DNA of 51,372 nt. Origin: Planctomycetota bacterium (lineage in GTDB: Bacteria; Planctomycetota; UBA1135). Of this stretch, positions 1,704 to 28,633 are shown one piece after another. The stretch's first letter is position 1; every line of letters starts with the position of its first letter. The position numbers were made by a program, and so were the translations under genes. The stretch covers positions 1 to 51,372 of the forward strand of contig RFGR01000022.1 in assembly GCA_003696625.1 (NCBI GenBank), given 5' to 3'. Under the pieces are notes generated by a model. That model worked only from the letters and a program-made list of their open reading frames with translations. It ran no database searches and was not told where the DNA came from.

Positions 1704-2873
1704 CTAGCGATTTGCAGATTTGTAGAGGCGGGCGAGCACCCGGACCAAGCGGCGGCCCGCCTCGGTCCCGACCGCCGCCCCGGCCGGGCGCCCGAAACTG
1801 ATCCTGAGGCTTGCGCGAGCGAGGTTTGCGTCCATCCCGGAGGCCAGGAGGACCGGGGAGGGCTGGGACGAGCCGCTGGAGCAGGCCGAGCCGGAGGCCA
1901 CCGCCAAGCCCTCGGCGTCGCAGGCCGGCAGCAGCGCCCGGCCGTCGATGCCGGGGAAGCTCAGGTTGAGCGTGTTCGGCAGCCCCTGGCCGAGCGGAGG
2001 TTGGTTCTCCTGGAATCCGGACGGGTCGGACCCGAAGAAACCGCGCAGTTCCTCGAGCAGGGCCCCAGCGGCGGCGGCGGTTTCCGCAGCGAAGGCCTCC
2101 TGCTCGGCCAGGGCCAGCCGGAGGGCGTGGGCGAAGGCGGCCGCCAGCGCCGGCGCCTCGGTGCCGGGGCGGACGCCCCGCTGGTGCCCGCCGCCGGCGA
2201 TGACCGGGTCGAAGGGCCGGTCCTCGGCCAGCCGCAGCACCGCGATCCCCTTCGGAGCGCCGATCTTGTGGCCGGACAGGACCAGGCCGGCGGCGGTCGC
2301 CAACCGCGGATCCCAGGGCAGCTTGCCGATGCCCTGGACCGCGTCGCAGTGGAAGTGGACCCGGCCCGGCACCCGCTCCGGCAGCGGCTGGATCGCCCCG
2401 GTCTCGTTGTTGGCCCATTGCAGGGCCAGCAGCACCGGATCCTCGTCCTCGGCCAGGGCCTCGGCCAGGGCCTCGGCTTCGATCCGGGCGTGGCGGTCGA
2501 GCGGCAGGGTGCGCAGCGGGAAACCCTCCTGCTGGAGGAGCCGCAGCGGCGACAGCACCGCCGGGTGCTCGGCCCGGGAGGAGATCAGGCGCGGCGGCCG
2601 CCCCTCCAGCCGAGCGATCGCCCGGGCGGCGCCGAGGACCCCCAGGTTGTTCGCCTCGGTGGCGCTGCCGCAGAACACCACCTCGCGCGAGTCGCAGTGG
2701 AGCAAGGAGGCGACCTCGTCCCGGGCCTGCTCGAGCAGGGCCTGGGCGTGGCGGCCGGGGCGGTGCAGCGCGGCCGGGTTGGCGCCGGCCTCGCGCTCCA
2801 CCCGAACGAAGGTCTCCAGCACCTCCGGCCGGACCGGCGCGCCGGCGTTCCAGTCCAGGTAGAGGCTAGCCAG
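1704..2873 (-). CDS. cysteine desulfurase (IscS/NifS family), probable CTG start
   Basis: This PLP enzyme removes sulfur from cysteine as a persulfide for Fe-S clusters and other thio-cofactors. The PLP lysine motif SGHK (Lys about 203) and the catalytic-cysteine loop SGSACSSGS (Cys about 331) are present. The ORF track starts at GTG 2822, but the in-frame DNA upstream encodes LYLDWNAGAPVRPE, the conserved N-terminal strand of this family. No ATG, GTG or TTG exists upstream in the part of the frame I read. CTG at 2873, behind a GGGAG-like sequence and overlapping the parA stop, gives 389 residues, the usual length. The start is inferred; the family call is firm. The overlap suggests translational coupling to parA. 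Confidence 0.9.
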   Translation of the reverse strand: MASLYLDWNAGAPVRPEVLETFVRVEREAGANPAALHRPGRHAQALLEQARDEVASLLHCDSREVVFCGSATEANNLGVLGAARAIARLEGRPPRLISSRAEHPAVLSPLRLLQQEGFPLRTLPLDRHARIEAEALAEALAEDEDPVLLALQWANNETGAIQPLPERVPGRVHFHCDAVQGIGKLPWDPRLATAAGLVLSGHKIGAPKGIAVLRLAEDRPFDPVIAGGGHQRGVRPGTEAPALAAAFAHALRLALAEQEAFAAETAAAAGALLEELRGFFGSDPSGFQENQPPLGQGLPNTLNLSFPGIDGRALLPACDAEGLAVASGSACSSGSSQPSPVLLASGMDANLARASLRISFGRPAGAAVGTEAGRRLVRVLARLYKSANR

Positions 2874-6454: not shown

Positions 6455-7704
6455 ACCGGCGTTCCCGGAGCGAGCCGGGTGAGCACCGAGTCGAGCAGCA
6501 CGAAGCCGCGGGCGGTGGCGCGCAACCGCTCGCCGGCCAGCTCGACCAGGCCTTCCCGCTGGAGCCGCTCCAGTTCCTCCGGCCAGACCCGGCGCGGATC
6601 GACACCGGCGATCCGCTCCACCCGCGGCAGCCAGACGCCTTCTTCTTCCAGCCGCAGCCCCATCATCAGGCAGTCGAAGGCGATGGTGCGAGGGTCCGGG
6701 CGCTCCCGCTCGGCGGCCGGATCGCGGCCGGCGAAGACCGCGGCCTCGTACTCCTCCGGGCGCTCGAGGTTGCGGCGGCGCTCGCCGTCGCGCCAGCCGG
6801 CGGCGCCGGCGCCGAGGCCGACCCAGTCGAGGCTGCGCCAATAGGCGAGGTTGTGTCGGCACTCCGCCCCCGGCCGGGCGAAGTTCGAGACCTCGTAGCG
6901 GCGCAGTCCGGCCTCCGCGCAGAGGCGTCGGGTCTGCTCGAAGAGTTCCAGTCGTCGCTCCTCGGGGTCGGCCGGCGGGAAGCGGCCGGCGTCGCGGGCA
7001 CGGGTGAGCGGGGTGCCGGGCTCGAAGCTCAGCTCGTAGCAGGAGAGGTGCTCGGGAGCCAGCGCCACCGCTCGGCCCAGGTCGGCGGCCAGGTCGGCCG
7101 GGTCCTGGCCCGGGAAGGCGAAGATCAGGTCCAGGTTCAGGCGCCGGAAACCGGCGGCCCGGGCGGCGGCGACGGCGGCCACCACCTCTTCGGGACCGTG
7201 CGCCCGGTCGTAGGCGCGCAGCACTTCCGGTCGAAACGACTGCACCCCGAGCGAGAGCCGGTCGGCGCCGTGCTCCCGCGCCGCCTGGGCGGTGGCGGCG
7301 TCGAGCGACTCCGGATTGGCCTCGATCGTCGTCTCGATCGAACCGCCGCGGAAGCCGGTGATCTCCGCCAGTCCGTCCAGCAGTCGGGCGAGTTCCTCGG
7401 CCGGCAGCAGGGACGGGGTGCCGCCGCCGAGGAAGACGGTCTGCGGCGCCAGCTCGGCGGCGCGGAGCCGGGCCTCGGCCAGGATCGCATCGACGTGCCG
7501 GCCGAGATCCTGCCCGCGCCAGGCCCAGGCGTTGAAGTCGCAGTAGCGGCAACGCGAGACGCAGAACGGCAGGTGCACGTAGAGCGAGACCCCGTGCTCG
7601 TCCAGGGACGGGCACGGGGCGGCGGCCGCTTCGGGCTCAGGCCGGGCGTCGCTTTCGCCGACGGGCGCGGAGGGGCTCGAGGATCTGGTCGGGCGGGACA
7701 CCAT
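6451..7704 (-). CDS. hemW: HemW-like radical SAM protein (coproporphyrinogen III oxidase-like)
   Basis: HemW proteins are radical SAM enzymes, related to HemN, that bind heme and act in heme delivery. The CxxxCxxC motif CVSRCRYC (Cys 48, 52, 55) binds the [4Fe-4S] cluster. FLGGGTPSLLP and the C-terminal YEVSNFARPG follow, as in HemW. The annotated ATG at 7704 would overlap the sigma-factor gene by 68 bases and adds about 33 low-complexity residues. Homology begins at about LDEHGVSLYVHLPFC, where an in-frame CTG (7605) lies 31 bases past the sigma stop and could be the real start. The family is sure and the start is not. Confidence 0.9.
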   Translation of the reverse strand: MVSRPTRSSSPSAPVGESDARPEPEAAAAPCPSLDEHGVSLYVHLPFCVSRCRYCDFNAWAWRGQDLGRHVDAILAEARLRAAELAPQTVFLGGGTPSLLPAEELARLLDGLAEITGFRGGSIETTIEANPESLDAATAQAAREHGADRLSLGVQSFRPEVLRAYDRAHGPEEVVAAVAAARAAGFRRLNLDLIFAFPGQDPADLAADLGRAVALAPEHLSCYELSFEPGTPLTRARDAGRFPPADPEERRLELFEQTRRLCAEAGLRRYEVSNFARPGAECRHNLAYWRSLDWVGLGAGAAGWRDGERRRNLERPEEYEAAVFAGRDPAAERERPDPRTIAFDCLMMGLRLEEEGVWLPRVERIAGVDPRRVWPEELERLQREGLVELAGERLRATARGFVLLDSVLTRLAPGTPV

Positions 7705-8506
7705 CGACGACGTAGGCGTGCAACTTGCGCAGGGCCAGCCGTTCGATCTGCCGCACGCGCTCGCGGGAGATGCCGAGCGCCTTGGCGATCGCCTCGAGGG
7801 TAGCGGGCTTCTCGTCGTCGATGCCGTAGCGCATCCGCAACACCGCCGCCTCGCGCTGGTCGATCAGGTCCAGGATATCCCGCAGCGTTTCGAGCGCGTC
7901 CCGTTTCAGCGCGATCTCGTCCGGCGGCAGGCGCTCGGCGGCGACGCCGGGGTGGTCCTCGGCGATGTTGTTCAGGATCTCGTCGCCGGTGCCGGTGCTG
8001 GTGGCGGTGGTCAGGGCCTGCTTCACGACCTTGACGTTGGCGGGCGACAGGCCGAGCTGGTCGGCGATCTCCTGGGCGGTCGGCCGCCGGCCGAGGGAAT
8101 GCTCGAGGTCGGCGGCGACCCGGCGCCACTTGCTGAGGATCTCGACCATGTAGGACGGCACCCGAACCGTCTTGGCCTGGTTGATCAGCGCCCGTCGGAT
8201 CGTCTGCTGGATCCACCAGGTGGCGTAGGTCGAGAAGCGGAAGCCGGCCTCGGGGTCGAACTTCTCGATCGCCTTGAGCAGGCCGAGGTTGCCTTCGGCG
8301 ATCAGGTCCGGCAACGCCAGGCCGCGGCCGGTGAAGCGCTTGGCGACGCTGACCACGAGCCGAAGGTTGGCGCGGATCATGTGCTCCCGCGCCTTTTGGT
8401 CGCCCTGCTGGACGCGGCGCCCGAGCGCGACCTCCTCCTCGGCGGTGAGGAGGGGCACCTGGTCGATGTCGCGCAGGTAGGTTTCGAGGCAGCGGTCGGA
8501 AGCGAT
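7637..8506 (-). CDS. RpoD-family sigma-70 factor, probable ATC start
   Basis: This sigma factor directs RNA polymerase to -10/-35 promoters. Region 2 (DLIAEGNLGLLKAIEKFDP, FSTYATWWIQQTIRRAL), region 3 and region 4 (ISRERVRQIERLALRKL) are all present. Region 1.1 is absent, as in short primary or group 2 sigmas. The ORF track starts at GTG 8458, but the 16 upstream codons encode a region 1.2-like sequence (CLETYLRDIDQ) that runs straight into VPLLTAEEE. The frame closes with TGA 8510-8512, and no ATG, GTG or TTG occurs between that stop and GTG 8458. ATC at 8506 sits 7 bases after GGAGGA, giving 289 residues. The start is inferred. Confidence 0.92.
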   Translation of the reverse strand: MASDRCLETYLRDIDQVPLLTAEEEVALGRRVQQGDQKAREHMIRANLRLVVSVAKRFTGRGLALPDLIAEGNLGLLKAIEKFDPEAGFRFSTYATWWIQQTIRRALINQAKTVRVPSYMVEILSKWRRVAADLEHSLGRRPTAQEIADQLGLSPANVKVVKQALTTATSTGTGDEILNNIAEDHPGVAAERLPPDEIALKRDALETLRDILDLIDQREAAVLRMRYGIDDEKPATLEAIAKALGISRERVRQIERLALRKLHAYVVDGVPPDQILEPLRARRRKRRPA

Positions 8507-15531: not shown

Positions 15532-16567
15532 GCCCCTGGCGGCCCTCGCCCTGTTCGCGGCGCTCCTGGTTCCGCCGGGGGCGCCGCCCGCTTCTGCGGG
15601 GGCGCCACCGGCTCAGGAGGCAGTCGGCGCCGGCGTCGGCTTCACCTGGCGGGCGCCGGCCGGCCTGGCCGATCTGGCCGAGCGCTACGCCGGCGAGATC
15701 GGACGCGGTCTGGCCGAGGCGCGGGAGTGGACCGGCCTGCCGCCGGACCCGCGGCCGTTCCAGGTCGAGTGGGTGGCCGACCGGCGCGGCCTCGCCCGCG
15801 CCCTCGGGGTCGGCCGGGTGCCGGAGTGGTACGCGGCGGTCGCGCTGCCCGACCAGCGACGGCTGGTGATCGCGACCGAAGTGGCCGGCTCCCGGGCACG
15901 GCTGCTGACTACTCTTCGCCACGAACTCATGCACCTGGCGATGGCCGACCTCGGGCCGCCGGCCTGGGACCGGCTGCCGGCCTGGTTCCACGAGGGCTGC
16001 GCCGAGGTTTTCTCGGGCGAGGTCTATCTGGGCGAGGTCAAGGTGTCGCTCTCCTGGCGGGCGGTGGTCGGCGACCTCGAACGCCTCGGCGAGTACCACG
16101 ACGGCTTCCCCGACGACACGGTCGGCGCCGCGATCGGCTACGCCCTGGGCGAGAAGTTCGTCTCCTCCTTCCTGCGCTGGTATGGGCTGCCCGCCCTGCA
16201 GGAGACGCTGGCCCGGGTCCGGGCCGGGGATTCGCTCGACCAGGCCCTGCTGGCGGTGACCGGCGCCGGTCTGATCGACCTCGAGGAGCGGATGCGGCGG
16301 GAGCTGGTCAACCCGTCCGGCCTGCTCGGCGACATCTACCCGCAGCTCTTCCTCGGCCTGGCCCTGTTCGCGGTCCTGGTGCTGCCGTTCGTGCGCGCCG
16401 CCCGCCGCCGCCGCCTGGCCGAGTTGGAAGAGCGGTGGGCGCGGGAGGAGCAGACCGCCGATCTCGATCCGGTGCTGGCGAGCGGGCAGTGGCGGCAGGT
16501 AGAACAGGAGGAGTCCCCGGGCGAGGAGGCCGAGCCCTGGGAGGACTGGGACGACGAGGAGTTTTGA
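15494..16567 (+). CDS. MA-family zinc metallopeptidase-like membrane protein
   Basis: A HELMH zinc motif (His 143, Glu 144, His 147) and a following WFHEGCAEVF (Glu 167) match gluzincins of the peptidase MA type. An N-terminal signal segment, a C-terminal transmembrane helix at about 275-295 and an acidic tail (EEAEPWEDWDDEEF) suggest a domain outside the cytoplasm anchored at its C-terminus. ATG 15494 overlaps the upstream gene by 38 bases. An in-frame CTG at 15536, 4 bases past the upstream stop, would also give a clean hydrophobic signal. The substrate is unknown. Confidence 0.78.
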   Translation: MTAGTATTSSCSRPLAALALFAALLVPPGAPPASAGAPPAQEAVGAGVGFTWRAPAGLADLAERYAGEIGRGLAEAREWTGLPPDPRPFQVEWVADRRGLARALGVGRVPEWYAAVALPDQRRLVIATEVAGSRARLLTTLRHELMHLAMADLGPPAWDRLPAWFHEGCAEVFSGEVYLGEVKVSLSWRAVVGDLERLGEYHDGFPDDTVGAAIGYALGEKFVSSFLRWYGLPALQETLARVRAGDSLDQALLAVTGAGLIDLEERMRRELVNPSGLLGDIYPQLFLGLALFAVLVLPFVRAARRRRLAELEERWAREEQTADLDPVLASGQWRQVEQEESPGEEAEPWEDWDDEEF

Positions 16568-21596: not shown

Positions 21597-24088
21597 GAGG
21601 GGTTGTGGTCGTTGCCGGGGAGGAGGCGCACCGGCCCGGACTCGTGCAGCCGGGTGCGGAAGTTGTAGCGGAACCAAGCGCCTTCCAGGATCCGGCCGTC
21701 CGGCAGGCGCAAGCGGGCCGGGCGGCTCTCGCCCCCCTCCAGCTCGAGCCGAGCCGGTTCGAGAACGCCGTCGGCCGCCGGCCGGGCTTCGAGTCGGATC
21801 CGGTCGCCCTCTCCCCGAAGGCGGCCGGCCTCCAGCCAGGCCCCGCCGGCCGTCAGGTCGAGTTCCAGGCCGCCGTCCTCGGTGCGGCGCCAAGCCAGGC
21901 GTTCGGCACCGCCGCGCAACGTCTCGGCGGCGCCTTCGGGAGCGTCGGCGGCCACCTTCTCGAACGATGCCCCACGCTCGAACACGCCGGCGTCGGGGCC
22001 GACCTCCGCCCGCCGACCGGTGAGTCGAAGGAGCCGGCCGTCCCCGGCGTCCAGGTTCGTCTCGGCCCCCCGGTCCAGCCGGGCGGTCCGGGCCGTCGGG
22101 TCGATGACCATGCCGCCGGCGCGGAGATCGAATCGCAGCGGCCCGCCCTCCGGGCGGAGAAGGGCGCCGCGGAGCCGCACCTGCTCCTGCGGAAGCGGAA
22201 CGAGGTCGAGGAGACGACGGCCGTCCTCGTCGGTCCGCATCCGGACGGTGTCGGCGGTCAGCTCCAGGGCGCCGTCGGCCCGGACCTCGCCGCGCAGCAG
22301 GGCCGAACTCCCGTCGGCGGCGAACCGACCGTGGTCGGCGCGCAGCCGGATCGTTTCTCCGTCCAGACCGAATTCCTTGGCCGGCCACTCGATTTGCGGG
22401 GAACCACTCGGGATCACCTCGTTTTCGAACCAGATCAGACGGTCGGCCCGAACGGTCGCCCGGCCGAGCACGGAGCCGTCGGGCGCGAGCCGGGGCATCT
22501 CGGCGCCGGCGGGACGGCCGCGCAGCTCGAGGCCGGACTCGCCGTGGAAGGCGAAGTGGTCGCCGCGCATCCGGGCTCCGCCGCGGTCGATCACCACGTT
22601 CCGGCGGGCGTCCAGGCGCAGGCCGCGGTCGCCCTCGAGGAAACCCTGGGCCTCGAGGGCTTCGCTCCGCATCACCGCCGGGGCGCCGCGCAGGGTGGTT
22701 CGGGTGAGCACGCCGCCGCCGGCGCGGAAGTGGGCGTAGTCCGGCTTCAGGGGATCGGCGGCGGCCATCTCGAGCCAGGGGGCGCCGAGACCGACCCCGT
22801 CGGTCGGGCGGAACACCACCGCCCCGTCCAGGCGCCGCCGCCCGTCCGGGAAGGCCTCGAAGCGGTCGGCCTGGATGCGGCCGTCCTCCAGGGCGACCGC
22901 TCCTTCCGCCAGCAGGTGGCCGTCCTCCAGCCGGAAGCGGTCGGCCTCGAACCGGCGGCCGTCTTCCTGGCCGAGGACGCCGCCGCGCAGGGCCAGCACG
23001 GGGCCGGGGGGATCGGCGCCTTCCGGGGCCGGGCGGGTCTCGATCCAAGCCCCGCCCCGAGCGGCCAACCAGGAGGCGGAGTCGTCCTCGGTCCGGCGGA
23101 AGGCCTGGAGCGGACCGAGCAGGTCCAGGCCGAGCAAGCGGCCGTCGGCCCAGACTAGGGTGGCGTCGCGGCCGAAGACCGCGGCCGGCCGCCGGTCGGC
23201 TAGCAGTCCGCTCCAGGCCGCCGGACCGAGCCCGCGGGCGACCCGGGGGATCCAGCCGGCTCCGCCGCCGTCAGGGGCGAAGTCGGCAACCAGGCCCCGG
23301 CAGCGGAAGGTGCCGGCGAGACCGCTCCCCGGCGGCAGGACCAGTTCGCAGCGTTCCCGGGCAGGGAGTTCCAGCCGGCGGCCTCCGTCCTCCAGCCGGC
23401 GCAGGGCGCCGCCGCCGTCCGAGCCCCCCTCGGCCCGCTCCCCGCTCGCCAGCGGAAACGACCAGGTCAGGGCCCCCCCTTCTCCGAAGCGGGCCTCGCC
23501 CCGGGCGAGGTCGAAGGCAAGATCTTCTCCGCGGACGAGAAGTCCGCCGGTCTGGAGCGAGAACAAGCCGTGGCCCTGGATCCGGCGTTGATCCGGCCAG
23601 AGTTCGGCCGCGGCCACGCTCAGGACCTGTTCGCCCTGGGGGTCGGGCCGGGACAGACGCGGCGATTCGAGCGACCAAGGCCGGGCCGGGTCCGGGCGCG
23701 GAACCGACTCGCCCGCCGCCAGGGCGACTCTGGCGGAGGGCGCCTCGATCCGCCAGGCGGTGGTGGCGCCGTCCTCGGCGAAGGCGGTCAACACCACCGA
23801 ACGGAGCCGCATTCCTCCTTCCTCGGGGCGCGGGTCGCGGCCGGCGATCCGCAGCCGCGGCACCGACCGGCCGGCGCCGGCGGGTTCCTCGGCCGGGCGG
23901 GGGATCAGGATCTCCACCGGTCCCCGGATGCCGAGTTCGACCCGGCCGAGATCCTCCAGTTCGAGGACGAAGCCGGCCGGCGGCTCGTCCACGGTCGGCG
24001 GCGCCGGCCGGCGCACGAGGAGGCGGCCGCCGAAGACGAGCGCCCCGGCGGCGACCGCCCAACCGATGAGCCGGCCCCGCCCGCTCAC
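21593..24088 (-). CDS. LptC/LptA-like fusion protein of LPS export
   Basis: The 831-residue protein has an N-terminal transmembrane helix (about 5-23) and a LptC-like region (about 40-150) with strands such as AWRIEAPSARVAL. It then has many short repeats of LptA/OstA type, for example VVIDRGGARMRGDHFAF and ATVRADRLIWFENE. In other bacteria LptC and LptA are separate proteins of about 190 and 180 residues, so this looks like a fused and extended version able to span the periplasm. GTG 24088 overlaps the kdsC stop (GTGA). Its neighbours kdsC and the lptD-like gene support a role in LPS export. Confidence 0.72.
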   Translation of the reverse strand: MSGRGRLIGWAVAAGALVFGGRLLVRRPAPPTVDEPPAGFVLELEDLGRVELGIRGPVEILIPRPAEEPAGAGRSVPRLRIAGRDPRPEEGGMRLRSVVLTAFAEDGATTAWRIEAPSARVALAAGESVPRPDPARPWSLESPRLSRPDPQGEQVLSVAAAELWPDQRRIQGHGLFSLQTGGLLVRGEDLAFDLARGEARFGEGGALTWSFPLASGERAEGGSDGGGALRRLEDGGRRLELPARERCELVLPPGSGLAGTFRCRGLVADFAPDGGGAGWIPRVARGLGPAAWSGLLADRRPAAVFGRDATLVWADGRLLGLDLLGPLQAFRRTEDDSASWLAARGGAWIETRPAPEGADPPGPVLALRGGVLGQEDGRRFEADRFRLEDGHLLAEGAVALEDGRIQADRFEAFPDGRRRLDGAVVFRPTDGVGLGAPWLEMAAADPLKPDYAHFRAGGGVLTRTTLRGAPAVMRSEALEAQGFLEGDRGLRLDARRNVVIDRGGARMRGDHFAFHGESGLELRGRPAGAEMPRLAPDGSVLGRATVRADRLIWFENEVIPSGSPQIEWPAKEFGLDGETIRLRADHGRFAADGSSALLRGEVRADGALELTADTVRMRTDEDGRRLLDLVPLPQEQVRLRGALLRPEGGPLRFDLRAGGMVIDPTARTARLDRGAETNLDAGDGRLLRLTGRRAEVGPDAGVFERGASFEKVAADAPEGAAETLRGGAERLAWRRTEDGGLELDLTAGGAWLEAGRLRGEGDRIRLEARPAADGVLEPARLELEGGESRPARLRLPDGRILEGAWFRYNFRTRLHESGPVRLLPGNDHNPS

Positions 24089-24603
24089 GGGCCGGCCGGA
24101 TGCCCTTCGCGGGCCCGGAGCAGCAGGTCGGCGACCTCGCGCAGGGCGCCGCAGCCGGCGCCGGCGCGGGTCACCCAGTCGGCCGCCTCGCGAACCGCCG
24201 GGACCGCCTCGGGTGGAGCGAAACGGAGGCCGGCGCAGGCGAACATCTCCAGGTCGGGCAGATCGTCGCCGATCGCCGCGACCTCTTCGTGGATCAAGCC
24301 GCGCTCGCGCAGGATCTCCTCCGCCAGCGGGCCCTTGGCGAAGCTGCCCATGCGCAGGGTCTCGATGCCGAGGCGGCGGACCCGGGCCGCCACCGCCGGG
24401 TTCTCGCGGCCGGTGATCACCGCGATCTCGACGCCGGCGCGCTGGAGCAGGACGAGGCCGTAGCCGTCGTGGACGTGGAAGTCGGCGCTCTCCGAACCGT
24501 CGGCGTGAACGGTGATCCGGCCGTCGGTCCAGACTCCGTCCACGTCGGTCAGCAGGAGCCGGATCCGGGAAGCGCGGTCGAGCAGTTCCGGGGGAGGGTT
24601 CAG
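24085..24603 (-). CDS. kdsC: 3-deoxy-D-manno-octulosonate 8-phosphate phosphatase, probable CTG start
   Basis: KdsC removes phosphate from Kdo-8-phosphate in Kdo synthesis (HAD superfamily). The ORF track starts too late, inside the catalytic motif. From CTG 24603 the protein reads MNPPPELLDRASRIRLLL then TDVDGVWTDG, with Asp 20 and Asp 22 as the catalytic pair, exactly as in KdsC. Later VITGRENPAV and IGDDLPDLEMF complete the HAD motifs. CTG overlaps the upstream stop as CTGA and lies about 5 bases after AGGTGA. No ATG, GTG or TTG is available nearby in frame. It gives 172 residues, the usual size. Confidence 0.92.
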   Translation of the reverse strand: MNPPPELLDRASRIRLLLTDVDGVWTDGRITVHADGSESADFHVHDGYGLVLLQRAGVEIAVITGRENPAVAARVRRLGIETLRMGSFAKGPLAEEILRERGLIHEEVAAIGDDLPDLEMFACAGLRFAPPEAVPAVREAADWVTRAGAGCGALREVADLLLRAREGHPAGP

Positions 24604-25583
24604 AGTCTCACCTCGAGCAGGTCCTGGATGTCGACGAGCCCGACCACGGTATCGCCTTCGTCGGCCAGCACCGGCACCTGATCGACGTGGGCCTCGTGGA
24701 TCAGGTGCAGCGCCTCGCCGACGAGCTGGCCGGCCCGGACGAAGCGCGGCGAGGCGGCCATGAAGGTCTCGATCGGCTGCTCCAGGTCGAGACCGCCGCC
24801 GGCCCGGGCCAGCCGGCGCAGGTCGCCGTCGGTGAAGATCCCGCGCAGCTCCCCGTTCGGGCCGACGACCACCGCGGCGCCGGGGCGGCCCGGGGTCTCG
24901 GTCATCACGACCAGGGCGTCGCGCAGACTGGCCCCGGCCGGTACCCGCGGCACTTGCTCGTCGCGGCGCATGATCTCGCCCACCTTCATCAGGCTCCGGC
25001 CGAGTTCGCCGGCCGGATGGAAGGCGGCGAACTCCTCGCGGGTGAAGTCGCGCCCTTCCAGCACCGCCATCGCCAGGGCGTCGCCGAGCGCCAGCATCGC
25101 CGTCGTGGTGACGGTCGGCGCCAGGCCGAGCGGACAGGCCTCGCCGAGGGGGCCCATCGCGATCACCAGGTCGGCGTGGCGGCCGAGCGGGGAGTCGGCG
25201 GACTCGGTCAGGGCCACGACTCGGGCGCCGATCGCCTTCAGCGAAGGCAAGAGCCGAACCACCTCCCGGGTCCTGCCGCTCTTGGAGAGGGCGAGGACCA
25301 GATCGTCGGGCCGCACCCGGCCGAGATCACCGTGCAGGGCTTCGGCCGGATGGAGGCAGAAGCTGGGGGTGCCGGTCGAGGCCAGGGTGGCCGAGATCTT
25401 CTGGCCGATCAGCCCGGCCTTGCCCATCCCGGTGACCACCACGCTGCCGCGGCAGTCCAGGACCCAGGCGACCGCCTGTTCGAAGTCGGCGCCCAGCCGG
25501 CGGCTCAGGGTGCGGATCGCCTCCGCCTCGAGCGCGAGCACCTCGAGACCGCGTTCCAGGGCGGGCTTGCCTTCGACGGGCAT
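24600..25583 (-). CDS. kdsD: D-arabinose 5-phosphate isomerase (SIS and CBS domains)
   Basis: The enzyme interconverts ribulose 5-phosphate and arabinose 5-phosphate, the first step of Kdo synthesis. The N-terminal SIS domain includes VVVTGMGKAGLIGQKI and ALSKSGRTREV, with HPAEALHGDLGR. Two CBS domains follow (about 200-325), giving the KpsF/KdsD architecture at 327 residues. ATG 25583 is 46 bases after a TACAAT -10-like sequence. It heads the operon kdsD-kdsC-lptCA-lptD-tatA. kpsF is an alternative name if it serves capsule synthesis; the Lpt neighbours favour kdsD. Confidence 0.95.
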   Translation of the reverse strand: MPVEGKPALERGLEVLALEAEAIRTLSRRLGADFEQAVAWVLDCRGSVVVTGMGKAGLIGQKISATLASTGTPSFCLHPAEALHGDLGRVRPDDLVLALSKSGRTREVVRLLPSLKAIGARVVALTESADSPLGRHADLVIAMGPLGEACPLGLAPTVTTTAMLALGDALAMAVLEGRDFTREEFAAFHPAGELGRSLMKVGEIMRRDEQVPRVPAGASLRDALVVMTETPGRPGAAVVVGPNGELRGIFTDGDLRRLARAGGGLDLEQPIETFMAASPRFVRAGQLVGEALHLIHEAHVDQVPVLADEGDTVVGLVDIQDLLEVRL

Positions 25584-25693: not shown

Positions 25694-26356
25694 ATGGATT
25701 TCGTCACCGTCGGCACCATTCTCGCCCTGGTGATCTCGATCACCAGCCACGAGGCCGCCCACGCCTGGACCGCCGACCGGCTCGGCGACCCGACCGCCCG
25801 TCAGCTCGGCCGGGTGACCCTCAACCCGCTGCCGCACATCGACCTGTTCATGACGGTCCTGCTGCCGGCGATGCTCTATCTGAGCGGCGGCGTGCTCTTC
25901 GGCGGCGCCAAGCCGGTGCCGGTGGCGGTCCACCGCCTGCGCCGGCCGGCGCGGGACTGGGCCCTGGTCGCCCTGGCCGGCCCGGGCATGAACCTGCTGC
26001 TGGCCCTGGTCTTCGCCGCCCTGCTCTCCGCCCTGCTGCACGCCGGCGTTTTCGTCCCCCGCGACCAGGGGGTGGAGGTCCTGGTCAACGCGGTGATCTT
26101 CAACGTCCTGTTGGCAGTGTTCAACATGGTCCCGGTGCCGCCGCTCGACGGCTCGCGGGTGGTCATGTACGGCCTGCACAAGGCCGGTCTGCGCCAGGCG
26201 CTCGCCTCCTACGTCCAGCTCGAGCGCTTCGGCCTGATGATCCTGATCGCGCTCCTGTTCTTGGTGGACGGTTTCTGGGCCTTCCTCTCCTCGATCATCA
26301 GCCCGATCTACCATTTCCTGCTGACCGTGGTCGGCCTCGGTTCCTACCTCGGCTGA
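25694..26356 (+). CDS. M50 family site-2 protease-like membrane metalloprotease
   Basis: This 220-residue membrane protein carries the zinc motif HEAAH at 19-23 in the first helix and a C-terminal conserved NMVPVPPLDGSRV, whose Asp is the third ligand. Several hydrophobic helices surround them, and it lacks PDZ or CBS domains. It belongs to the short YwhC/SREBP-type M50 group. The substrate is unknown. ATG 25694 is used. scpA follows 14 bases after the stop; M50 and scpA genes occur together in several phyla. Confidence 0.9.
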   Translation: MDFVTVGTILALVISITSHEAAHAWTADRLGDPTARQLGRVTLNPLPHIDLFMTVLLPAMLYLSGGVLFGGAKPVPVAVHRLRRPARDWALVALAGPGMNLLLALVFAALLSALLHAGVFVPRDQGVEVLVNAVIFNVLLAVFNMVPVPPLDGSRVVMYGLHKAGLRQALASYVQLERFGLMILIALLFLVDGFWAFLSSIISPIYHFLLTVVGLGSYLG

Positions 26357-26370
26357 CCCTTGGCGCCGCC

Positions 26371-27303
26371 GTGATCGAGCCCGTCGATCCCTCGCTCATC
26401 CCCGCCGCCCGGGTGCCGGCGCCCGAGCCGCCGCCGTCGGCATCGCCGGCCGACTTCACGGTCCGCCTCGAACGGGTCTTCCACGGCCCACTCGACCTGC
26501 TGCTTCAGCTCGTCCGCGACCGGGAACTCGAGATCCACGTCGTTTCCCTGGCCGAGGTCTGCGACGCCTATTGCCGCTACGTCCGGTCGCTGGAGGAGGT
26601 GGACGTGGACGAGGCGGCCGACTACCTGGTCGTCGCCGCCACCCTGCTGGCGATCAAGAGCCGCTCCCTGCTCCCGCAGGAGGAGCTGGACGAGGATGAG
26701 GACCCCTTCGATCCGGGCGAAGAGCTGGTCCAGCAGCTCCTGATCTACAAGGAGCTGCGCCAGGCCGCCGACCGCCTCGGCGCGGCCTGGCGCCGTCGCG
26801 CCCGCCTGCTTCCGGCCGGCGGCCGCTGGCTCGGCCGCTACCAACAGGAGGAGGACGAAGAGGAGCAGGAGTGGGACCTGGGCGAGGTGTCGGTCTGGGA
26901 TCTGCTCCAGGTCTTCCGCCGTCTCGAAGAGGAGACGGGTTTCCTGCGTCCGCACCGGGTGCGGGAGAGCGGTCGGCCGCTCTCCTGGTACGTCGAGGAG
27001 GTCTGGCGCCGGATCGAATCCGGCGGCCGGCTGAGCCTGCTGGAGGTGTTCGGCGAAGGCAAGATCGATCGCGCCGACGCGGCTTACTACTTGGTCGCCC
27101 TGCTCGAGTTGGCGCGCCAGCAGGCGATCGACCTGGAGCAGACCGAACCCTTCGGCGACGTCTTCGTCTCTCGGGCGGCCGAAGCCGGCGAGATCCGCCT
27201 GGACGAGCTGGACCAGTGCTTCGACCACCCGGCCGGAGAGGGCGAAGCCGAGGTCGAAGATTTGCTGGCCGAGGAGCCGGGTTCCGCGCCGGAGGAACCC
27301 TGA
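26371..27303 (+). CDS. scpA: segregation and condensation protein A (kleisin)
   Basis: ScpA links SMC heads in the bacterial condensin. The N-terminus has the family signature VFHGPLDLLLQLVRDRELEIHVVSLAEV (partly shown), followed by EAADYLVVAATLLAIKSRSLLP. An acidic, Glu/Asp-rich linker comes next, then a C-terminal winged helix with RLSLLEVFGEGKID. GTG 26371 gives 310 residues; the longer ORF starts in the shadow of other genes. The usual partner scpB is not adjacent. Confidence 0.92.
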   Translation: MIEPVDPSLIPAARVPAPEPPPSASPADFTVRLERVFHGPLDLLLQLVRDRELEIHVVSLAEVCDAYCRYVRSLEEVDVDEAADYLVVAATLLAIKSRSLLPQEELDEDEDPFDPGEELVQQLLIYKELRQAADRLGAAWRRRARLLPAGGRWLGRYQQEEDEEEQEWDLGEVSVWDLLQVFRRLEEETGFLRPHRVRESGRPLSWYVEEVWRRIESGGRLSLLEVFGEGKIDRADAAYYLVALLELARQQAIDLEQTEPFGDVFVSRAAEAGEIRLDELDQCFDHPAGEGEAEVEDLLAEEPGSAPEEP

Positions 27304-27364: not shown

Positions 27365-27688
<324 letters not shown>

Positions 27689-27697
27689 GTCCGCACC

Positions 27698-28633
27698 CTG
27701 CGCCTCGCCTTCCTCGGTTCGCCTCCGTTCGCGGCGCCGGCCTTCGCCGCCCTGTGCGCGCGGCCGGAGCCGCCGGTGGTCCTGGTCACGGCGCCCGCCC
27801 GCCGCGCCGGGCGCGGCCGCCGGGAGGCGCAGAACCCGCTCGTGGTGCGGGCGCAGGCCGCCGGGATCCCGATTCTGCGGCCGGAGCGGGCCTCCGATCC
27901 GGGTTTCCTGGTTGATTTGGCCCGTTTCCGGCCGGACCTAGGGGTGGTCGTCAGCTACGGCCAGCTCCTCCGCCGGGAGCTTCTCGACCTGCCGCGGTTC
28001 GGCTGCATCAACCTGCACGCCTCGCTGTTGCCCCGCTGGCGCGGCGCCAGCCCGATCCAGGCCGCGATCCTGGCCGGGGACGAGCGCACCGGGGTCTGCC
28101 TTCAGCGGGTGGTGCTGGAGCTGGACGCCGGGCCGGTCCTGGCCGCCCGCGAGACCGCGATCGGCCCGCGGGAGACCGCCGCGGAACTCGCCCCCCGCCT
28201 GGCCGAGCTGGGAGCCGAGCTGCTCCGCGACTTCCTCGACGGGATCGGGGCCGGCCCGCTTCCGCCCGGGCGGCCGCAGGACGAGGAGGCGGTCACCGTC
28301 TGTCGGCGGCTGAAGCGGTCGAGCGCCCGGATCGACTGGACCCGGTCGGCCACCGAGATCGACCGTCTGGTCCGGGCGATGGCCGGCTGGCCGGTCGCCT
28401 TCACCACCCTGCCGGACGGCGAGGAGCTGCGGATCCACGCCGGGGAGCCGGAGGCGCGGGGCTCCCGAGAGGCCGACCCGGGTACGATTCTGGGGGTCGA
28501 GGCCGGCATCACCGTCGCCTGCGGCGAGGGGGTGTTCCGAATCCAGCGCCTCCAGCGGCCGGGCCGGGCGGTGCTCGCCGCGGCCGAGTTCCTGCGCGGC
28601 CGGACGCTGCGGCCCGGGGAGATCTTGGGATGA
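27698..28633 (+). CDS. fmt: methionyl-tRNA formyltransferase, probable CTG start
   Basis: Fmt formylates the initiator Met-tRNA. The formyl-folate binding motif LHASLLPRWRGASPIQ is present, and the N-terminal domain needs the conserved FLGSPPF (family FxGTPxF). The ORF track starts at GTG 27776, which would delete it. The frame upstream reads TGA (end of trxA), then GTC CGC ACC CTG, so the only start giving this motif is CTG 27698. It yields 311 residues, the standard Fmt length. Its stop overlaps the rsmB ATG as ATGA. The family is sure and the CTG start is a strong inference. Confidence 0.94.
   Translation: MRLAFLGSPPFAAPAFAALCARPEPPVVLVTAPARRAGRGRREAQNPLVVRAQAAGIPILRPERASDPGFLVDLARFRPDLGVVVSYGQLLRRELLDLPRFGCINLHASLLPRWRGASPIQAAILAGDERTGVCLQRVVLELDAGPVLAARETAIGPRETAAELAPRLAELGAELLRDFLDGIGAGPLPPGRPQDEEAVTVCRRLKRSSARIDWTRSATEIDRLVRAMAGWPVAFTTLPDGEELRIHAGEPEARGSREADPGTILGVEAGITVACGEGVFRIQRLQRPGRAVLAAAEFLRGRTLRPGEILG

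Follow-up and report, generated by a model that had tools for sequence, protein, structure and literature searches.

Bacterial genes that begin at non-standard codons have been described in several settings. CTG is reportedly among the non-canonical starts of Deinococcus deserti. Such starts were identified in that organism by N-terminal proteomics (Baudet et al. 2010, as cited in PMC3305630). The Streptomyces sigma factor gene sigR combines a strong Shine-Dalgarno with a GTC start at which IF3 acts as a repressor (PMC5472188), while E. coli infC and pcnB start at AUU and Staphylococcus aureus uses AUU/AUA starts together with an extended Shine-Dalgarno (PMC13009471). ATGA and GTGA overlaps with coupling of termination and re-initiation are also known (PMC10666635). 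The kdsC gene analyzed here resembles the D. deserti cases in that it begins at a codon that gene finders ignore, but its start was deduced by comparing sequences and not from peptides. As in the ATGA/GTGA systems, its start shares 4 bases with the stop of a functionally linked gene, here kdsD; it differs from them in having CTG as the start codon. Unlike sigR, kdsC is no regulator, and in contrast to the infC, pcnB and S. aureus starts its codon lacks conservation and follows GC as it drifts. Non-standard starts are thus of a kind already known, to which the kdsC CTG very likely adds one more.

The window, a stretch of 51,372 nucleotides with a GC content of ~73%, comes from a draft Planctomycetota genome (G000). 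On its minus strand the 3' end of kdsD reads CTC GAG GTG AGA CTC TGA, and from 24603 the kdsC frame reads CTG AAC CCT CCC CCG GAA, so that a CTG overlaps the kdsD stop as CTGA, just as a first-pass annotation of the window had described (Table 1). Translation from this CTG gave MNPPPELLDRASRIRLLLTDVDGVWTDG, as stated in that annotation. The GAGGTGA in front of it pairs with ACCUCCUUA at -7.2 kcal/mol. An AGGTGA had been placed about 5 bases upstream of the CTG; the site is present, but the actual spacing is 4 bases, and 7 bases for the GAGG core. This motif is evidently not independent of the protein, as GAG GT encodes the conserved E-V of kdsD. The CTGA by itself is weak evidence for a start because an NTG at this place is automatic once the kdsD stop is TGA.

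Table 1. Coordinates of the kdsD-kdsC junction and of other window genes with non-standard starts
Feature	Position	Strand	Remarks
kdsC start codon (proposed), CTG	24601..24603	-	overlaps kdsD stop as CTGA
kdsD stop codon, TGA	24600..24602	-	
Shine-Dalgarno-like GAGGTGA	24608..24614	-	within last kdsD codons (LEVRL)
kdsC, KDO-8-phosphate phosphatase (HAD), 172 aa from CTG	24085..24603	-	TIGR01670; solved KdsC relatives
kdsD, arabinose-5-phosphate isomerase (KpsF/GutQ family)	24600..25583	-	upstream of kdsC, presumably coupled; TIGR00393
fmt, methionyl-tRNA formyltransferase	27698..28633	+	proposed CTG start 27698-27700; TIGR00460
NifS/IscS-like cysteine desulfurase	1704..2873	-	probable CTG start 2873-2871
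RpoS/RpoD-like sigma factor	7637..8506	-	apparent ATC start 8506-8504; GGAGG ahead; in-frame TGA 8512-8510

The product of kdsC scored 131.7 bits against TIGR01670 (cut-off, 106.95), and that of kdsD scored 289.8 bits against TIGR00393 (cut-off, 203.7). The score of the kdsC product against the equivalog model PRK09484 (KdsC) was 139.1 bits, below the cut-off of 208. The HAD motif DxDG is present as DVDGVWTDG, residues 20-28 of the CTG-started protein. By its match to the subfamily model, the window protein is assigned as a KdsC phosphatase (YrbI family), acting on a lipopolysaccharide sugar, without the narrow equivalog, and the adjoining kdsD supports this function.

The first catalytic Asp codon, GAC, occupies 24546-24544 on the minus strand and is followed by GTG at 24543-24541. 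Over the 260 open codons that precede this Asp in the window, the kdsC frame contains no ATG, GTG or TTG. Its first standard codon is the GTG at 24543, which is the automatic start and lies inside DVDG; a protein started there would lack the nucleophilic Asp of its DxD motif, and the earlier rejection of this ORF-track start was correct. Under annotation limited to ATG, GTG and TTG, KdsC therefore loses its catalytic Asp, and gene finders so restricted shorten or miss such genes in general. CTG 24603 had also been called the sole candidate, which is true with respect to ATG, GTG and TTG; other non-standard codons do occur in frame, namely CTG 24585 and ATC 24564 (13 and 6 codons before the Asp, i.e. 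-13 and -6) and further CTGs at -3 and -2.

We therefore considered whether kdsC might start further in, chiefly at CTG 24585 or ATC 24564. Leader length is of limited help here. The leader of about 20 residues expected by the first-pass annotation fits CTG 24603 but is not decisive, as leaders in solved KdsC relatives range from ~13 residues (H. influenzae) up to 28. Those of the H. influenzae and Aquifex proteins measure only ~13-16 residues, and with a start at -13 the window protein would have a leader as short as that of H. influenzae KdsC. Several relatives moreover carry TTG at -13 or GTG at -6, and the GTG at -6 in the same-genus genome G001 and in G021 could serve as a start that leaves a very short leader. 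On the other hand, TTG at -19, the codon that aligns with CTG 24603, is all that G025 (L013) and G009 (L008) have by way of a standard start ahead of the Asp; three relatives have ATG at -19, which in G019 (L004) is again the sole standard start before the Asp. Inspection by eye revealed no Shine-Dalgarno ahead of -13 or -6.

Substitution patterns also argue against a start further in. We measured substitution periodicity in a gapless alignment of ten genomes, with values given by kdsC codon position 1/2/3. Upstream of the start the values were 0.59/0.26/0.12, the variable base being the kdsD wobble, while from the first codon past the start they were 0.45/0.27/0.64, with position 3 the most variable, and in the kdsC core they were 0.16/0.13/0.54. 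The first six kdsC codons, which precede -13, had a third-position diversity of 0.59 versus 0.38/0.38, indicating that kdsC-frame constraint is already visible there. Since the periodicity switches at the CTG codon, kdsC-frame coding begins at that codon. A start at one of the inner non-standard codons thus appears quite improbable, and kdsC very probably starts at the CTG that overlaps the kdsD stop.

Since CTGA alone is weak evidence, it is the relatives that carry the argument for this start. CTGA is found at the kdsD TGA in G000 and G001, in both 19 codons before the Asp, and in G021, where it lies four codons further out. Seven family genomes have a TTGA overlap (including G003, two codons further out), three have ATGA, and GTGA occurs at the same codon in G014 and further out in G018. 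The occurrence of ATGA, GTGA and TTGA in the more distant family members, a comparison that the first-pass annotation had proposed, confirms the place of the start, with the qualification that NTGA conservation is partly trivial, its TG being forced by the kdsD TGA. In family members whose kdsD ends in TAA or TAG, kdsC has a start of its own further downstream, at ATG or another codon. Outside the family, NTGA overlaps that act as the kdsC start are almost always ATGA, and the CTGA cases found there have a usable ATG, GTG or TTG elsewhere.

The same comparison bears on two other readings. The window comes from a draft genome of 186 contigs, and the C of the CTG could in principle be a sequencing or assembly error for A, G or T, as the earlier annotation had itself allowed. 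This is highly improbable because the same-genus genome G001, a separate assembly whose KdsC is 81% identical, also carries CTGA; G021 likewise has CTG at the overlap, and the kdsD codon CTC that supplies the C is normal at the GC content of the window. Alternatively, kdsC might be produced solely as a fusion to KdsD by frameshifting, which would be in keeping with the long stretch without stops that precedes kdsC in its frame in the window. Around the junction, the kdsD frame contains no slippery heptamer of the form X_XXY_YYZ, and a +1 shift at CTC TGA of the prfB type does not fit because kdsC sits in the -1 frame. Four relatives (L006, L010, L013 and L018) have a stop in the kdsC frame ~22 codons before the Asp, and their protein therefore starts after that stop; other relatives carry plain ATGA or GTGA. 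Production by fusion alone is scarcely credible in view of these observations.

With the start at the overlap, the first base of the kdsC start codon is also the third base of the last kdsD codon, a relation that goes beyond the original annotation. CTC, CTT and CTA at the end of kdsD all encode Leu and give CTG, TTG and ATG, respectively, as the kdsC start. The three genomes with CTG had a locus GC of 73-75%, and the two with GTG had 76% and 68%. Genomes with TTG or ATG ranged from 51-61%, except for one TTG genome at 70%. The CTG of kdsC looks like GC-driven drift at this shared wobble base that would be tolerated through translational coupling. In a tree of KdsD plus KdsC, the three CTG genomes fell into one supported clade together with TTG genomes, and CTG may for this reason have arisen once. 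The start thus drifts among ATG, TTG, GTG and CTG at one place and offers a natural series on the tolerance of initiation within a coupled overlap. We regard the CTG start as very likely real; it soundly corrects the annotation and illustrates cleanly how a base shared by two genes can drift.

These observations fit a model in which ribosomes that end kdsD would halt at TGA 24602-24600, where the GAGGTGA in the last kdsD codons would stay near the anti-Shine-Dalgarno. The ribosomes would then slip back by one base and re-initiate with the ordinary initiator tRNA (CAU), which would mispair with the first base of the codon, and the first residue of KdsC would be Met. Synonymous drift of the last kdsD codon would yield an ATG, TTG or CTG start, with C as the endpoint in GC-rich genomes, and the ribosome delivered by kdsD would make this drift tolerable. 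We consider translation of kdsC from CTG 24603 by re-initiation after kdsD, with a synonymously drifting start base, to be highly likely. The Shine-Dalgarno would help this start but is apparently dispensable, because conserved residues of kdsD dictate its sequence and G024 and G025 have only a weak one.

Also beyond the first-pass annotation, fmt, the cysteine desulfurase gene and the sigma factor gene of the window likewise lack ATG, GTG or TTG starts, so that, with kdsC, probably no fewer than three or four window genes start at codons ignored by gene finders. The fmt product scored 240.8 bits against TIGR00460 (cut-off, 201.5). An in-frame TGA (27686-27688) lies a few codons upstream of the proposed CTG, and the frame has no ATG, GTG or TTG up to +12 codons and no standard start before codon +29. 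Among 24 relatives the start column contained 10 ATG, 10 TTG and 4 CTG; T and G were invariant and, as at kdsC, only the first base varied, here at a start free of any gene overlap. The DNA upstream of it was without codon periodicity (0.74/0.73/0.73), and neither the window nor G010 has an alternative to the CTG. The desulfurase gene probably starts at CTG 2873, a codon that is CTG in 9 of 21 relatives, but this assignment is less certain because other relatives start two codons upstream.

The clustering of three or four such genes in one window, together with the unusual frequency of TTG at the fmt and kdsC starts, could reflect lineage-wide relaxation of start codons through an altered initiation apparatus (IF3 or initiator tRNA). 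This would be a possible cause behind the kdsC CTG and not an alternative to the CTG start. The initiator tRNA (L381 1501-1576, plus strand), however, looks normal, with anticodon CAT and three G-C pairs in the anticodon stem, and infC is present with its usual ATT/ATC/ATA start. Each window gene was compared with its orthologues in the family, at most 12 per gene, and in many of them an ATG or GTG start is conserved in position. We consider relaxed initiation an unlikely cause. Genome-wide counts of genes with no standard start close to where coding begins had a noisy background, 6-14% in control genomes, owing to onset errors. A census of codons that follow Shine-Dalgarno sites showed these sites to be weakly used (17% of ATG positions in G000 and 5% in G025), too weakly to gauge CTG use.

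The start of the sigma factor gene seems more surprising than that of kdsC and resembles those of infC and Streptomyces sigR. A single codon, ACC, separates the in-frame TGA from ATC 8506. The start column of 44 orthologues of the order comprised 20 ATT, 19 ATC, 4 ATG and 1 TTG, so that ATT or ATC is found in 39 of 44 and the non-standard start is conserved; in 16 of these 39, no ATG, GTG or TTG is available. The DNA upstream was aperiodic (~0.7 at all positions), and downstream it showed a coding pattern beginning with the first codon (family values, 0.12/0.02/0.53). The Shine-Dalgarno had a median of -6.6 versus a background of -2.3 and was absent in the three family members with ATG. Of 20 genomes from elsewhere in the phylum, outside the family, roughly half had ATC at this codon. 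The infC gene of G000 (L329) also has an apparent ATT start, preceded within a few codons by an in-frame stop, and its family mates use ATT, ATC or ATA, as in other bacteria.

A conserved non-AUG start with a strong Shine-Dalgarno likens the sigma gene to infC, pcnB and the S. aureus genes. The nearest precedent appears to be sigR, which likewise encodes a sigma factor, pairs a non-standard start with a strong Shine-Dalgarno and has had its start misannotated; the window gene differs in that it uses ATC/ATT and is RpoS/RpoD-like, and control by IF3 is suggested for it by analogy. If control were of the infC/sigR type, it would carry that control to another phylum. A literature search found no report of a start of this type in a Planctomycetota sigma factor, but this argues only weakly for novelty as subscription papers were mostly outside its coverage. 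We lean slightly towards the view that Planctomycetota retain the AUU/AUC sigma start as a translational control, probably via IF3, while kdsC, fmt and the desulfurase gene, ordinary housekeeping genes, drifted in the GC-rich members of this family to CTG starts that standard annotation misses.

Two further candidates in the window were rejected. The scpA-like gene at 26353-27303 (plus strand) has a CTGA that overlaps the upstream stop at 26353, but a GTG six codons on matches ATG or GTG in 11 of 12 genomes; this gene is a warning that CTGA alone is untrustworthy as a start. The peptidase-like gene at 15623-16567 (plus strand) at first appeared startless, but has an ATG ~43 codons upstream that would give a plausible signal peptide. 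That ATG is its nearest standard start and makes a ~40-base overlap with the preceding gene. As a separate observation, the acceptor end of the initiator tRNA seemingly has a C-U mismatch instead of C-A.
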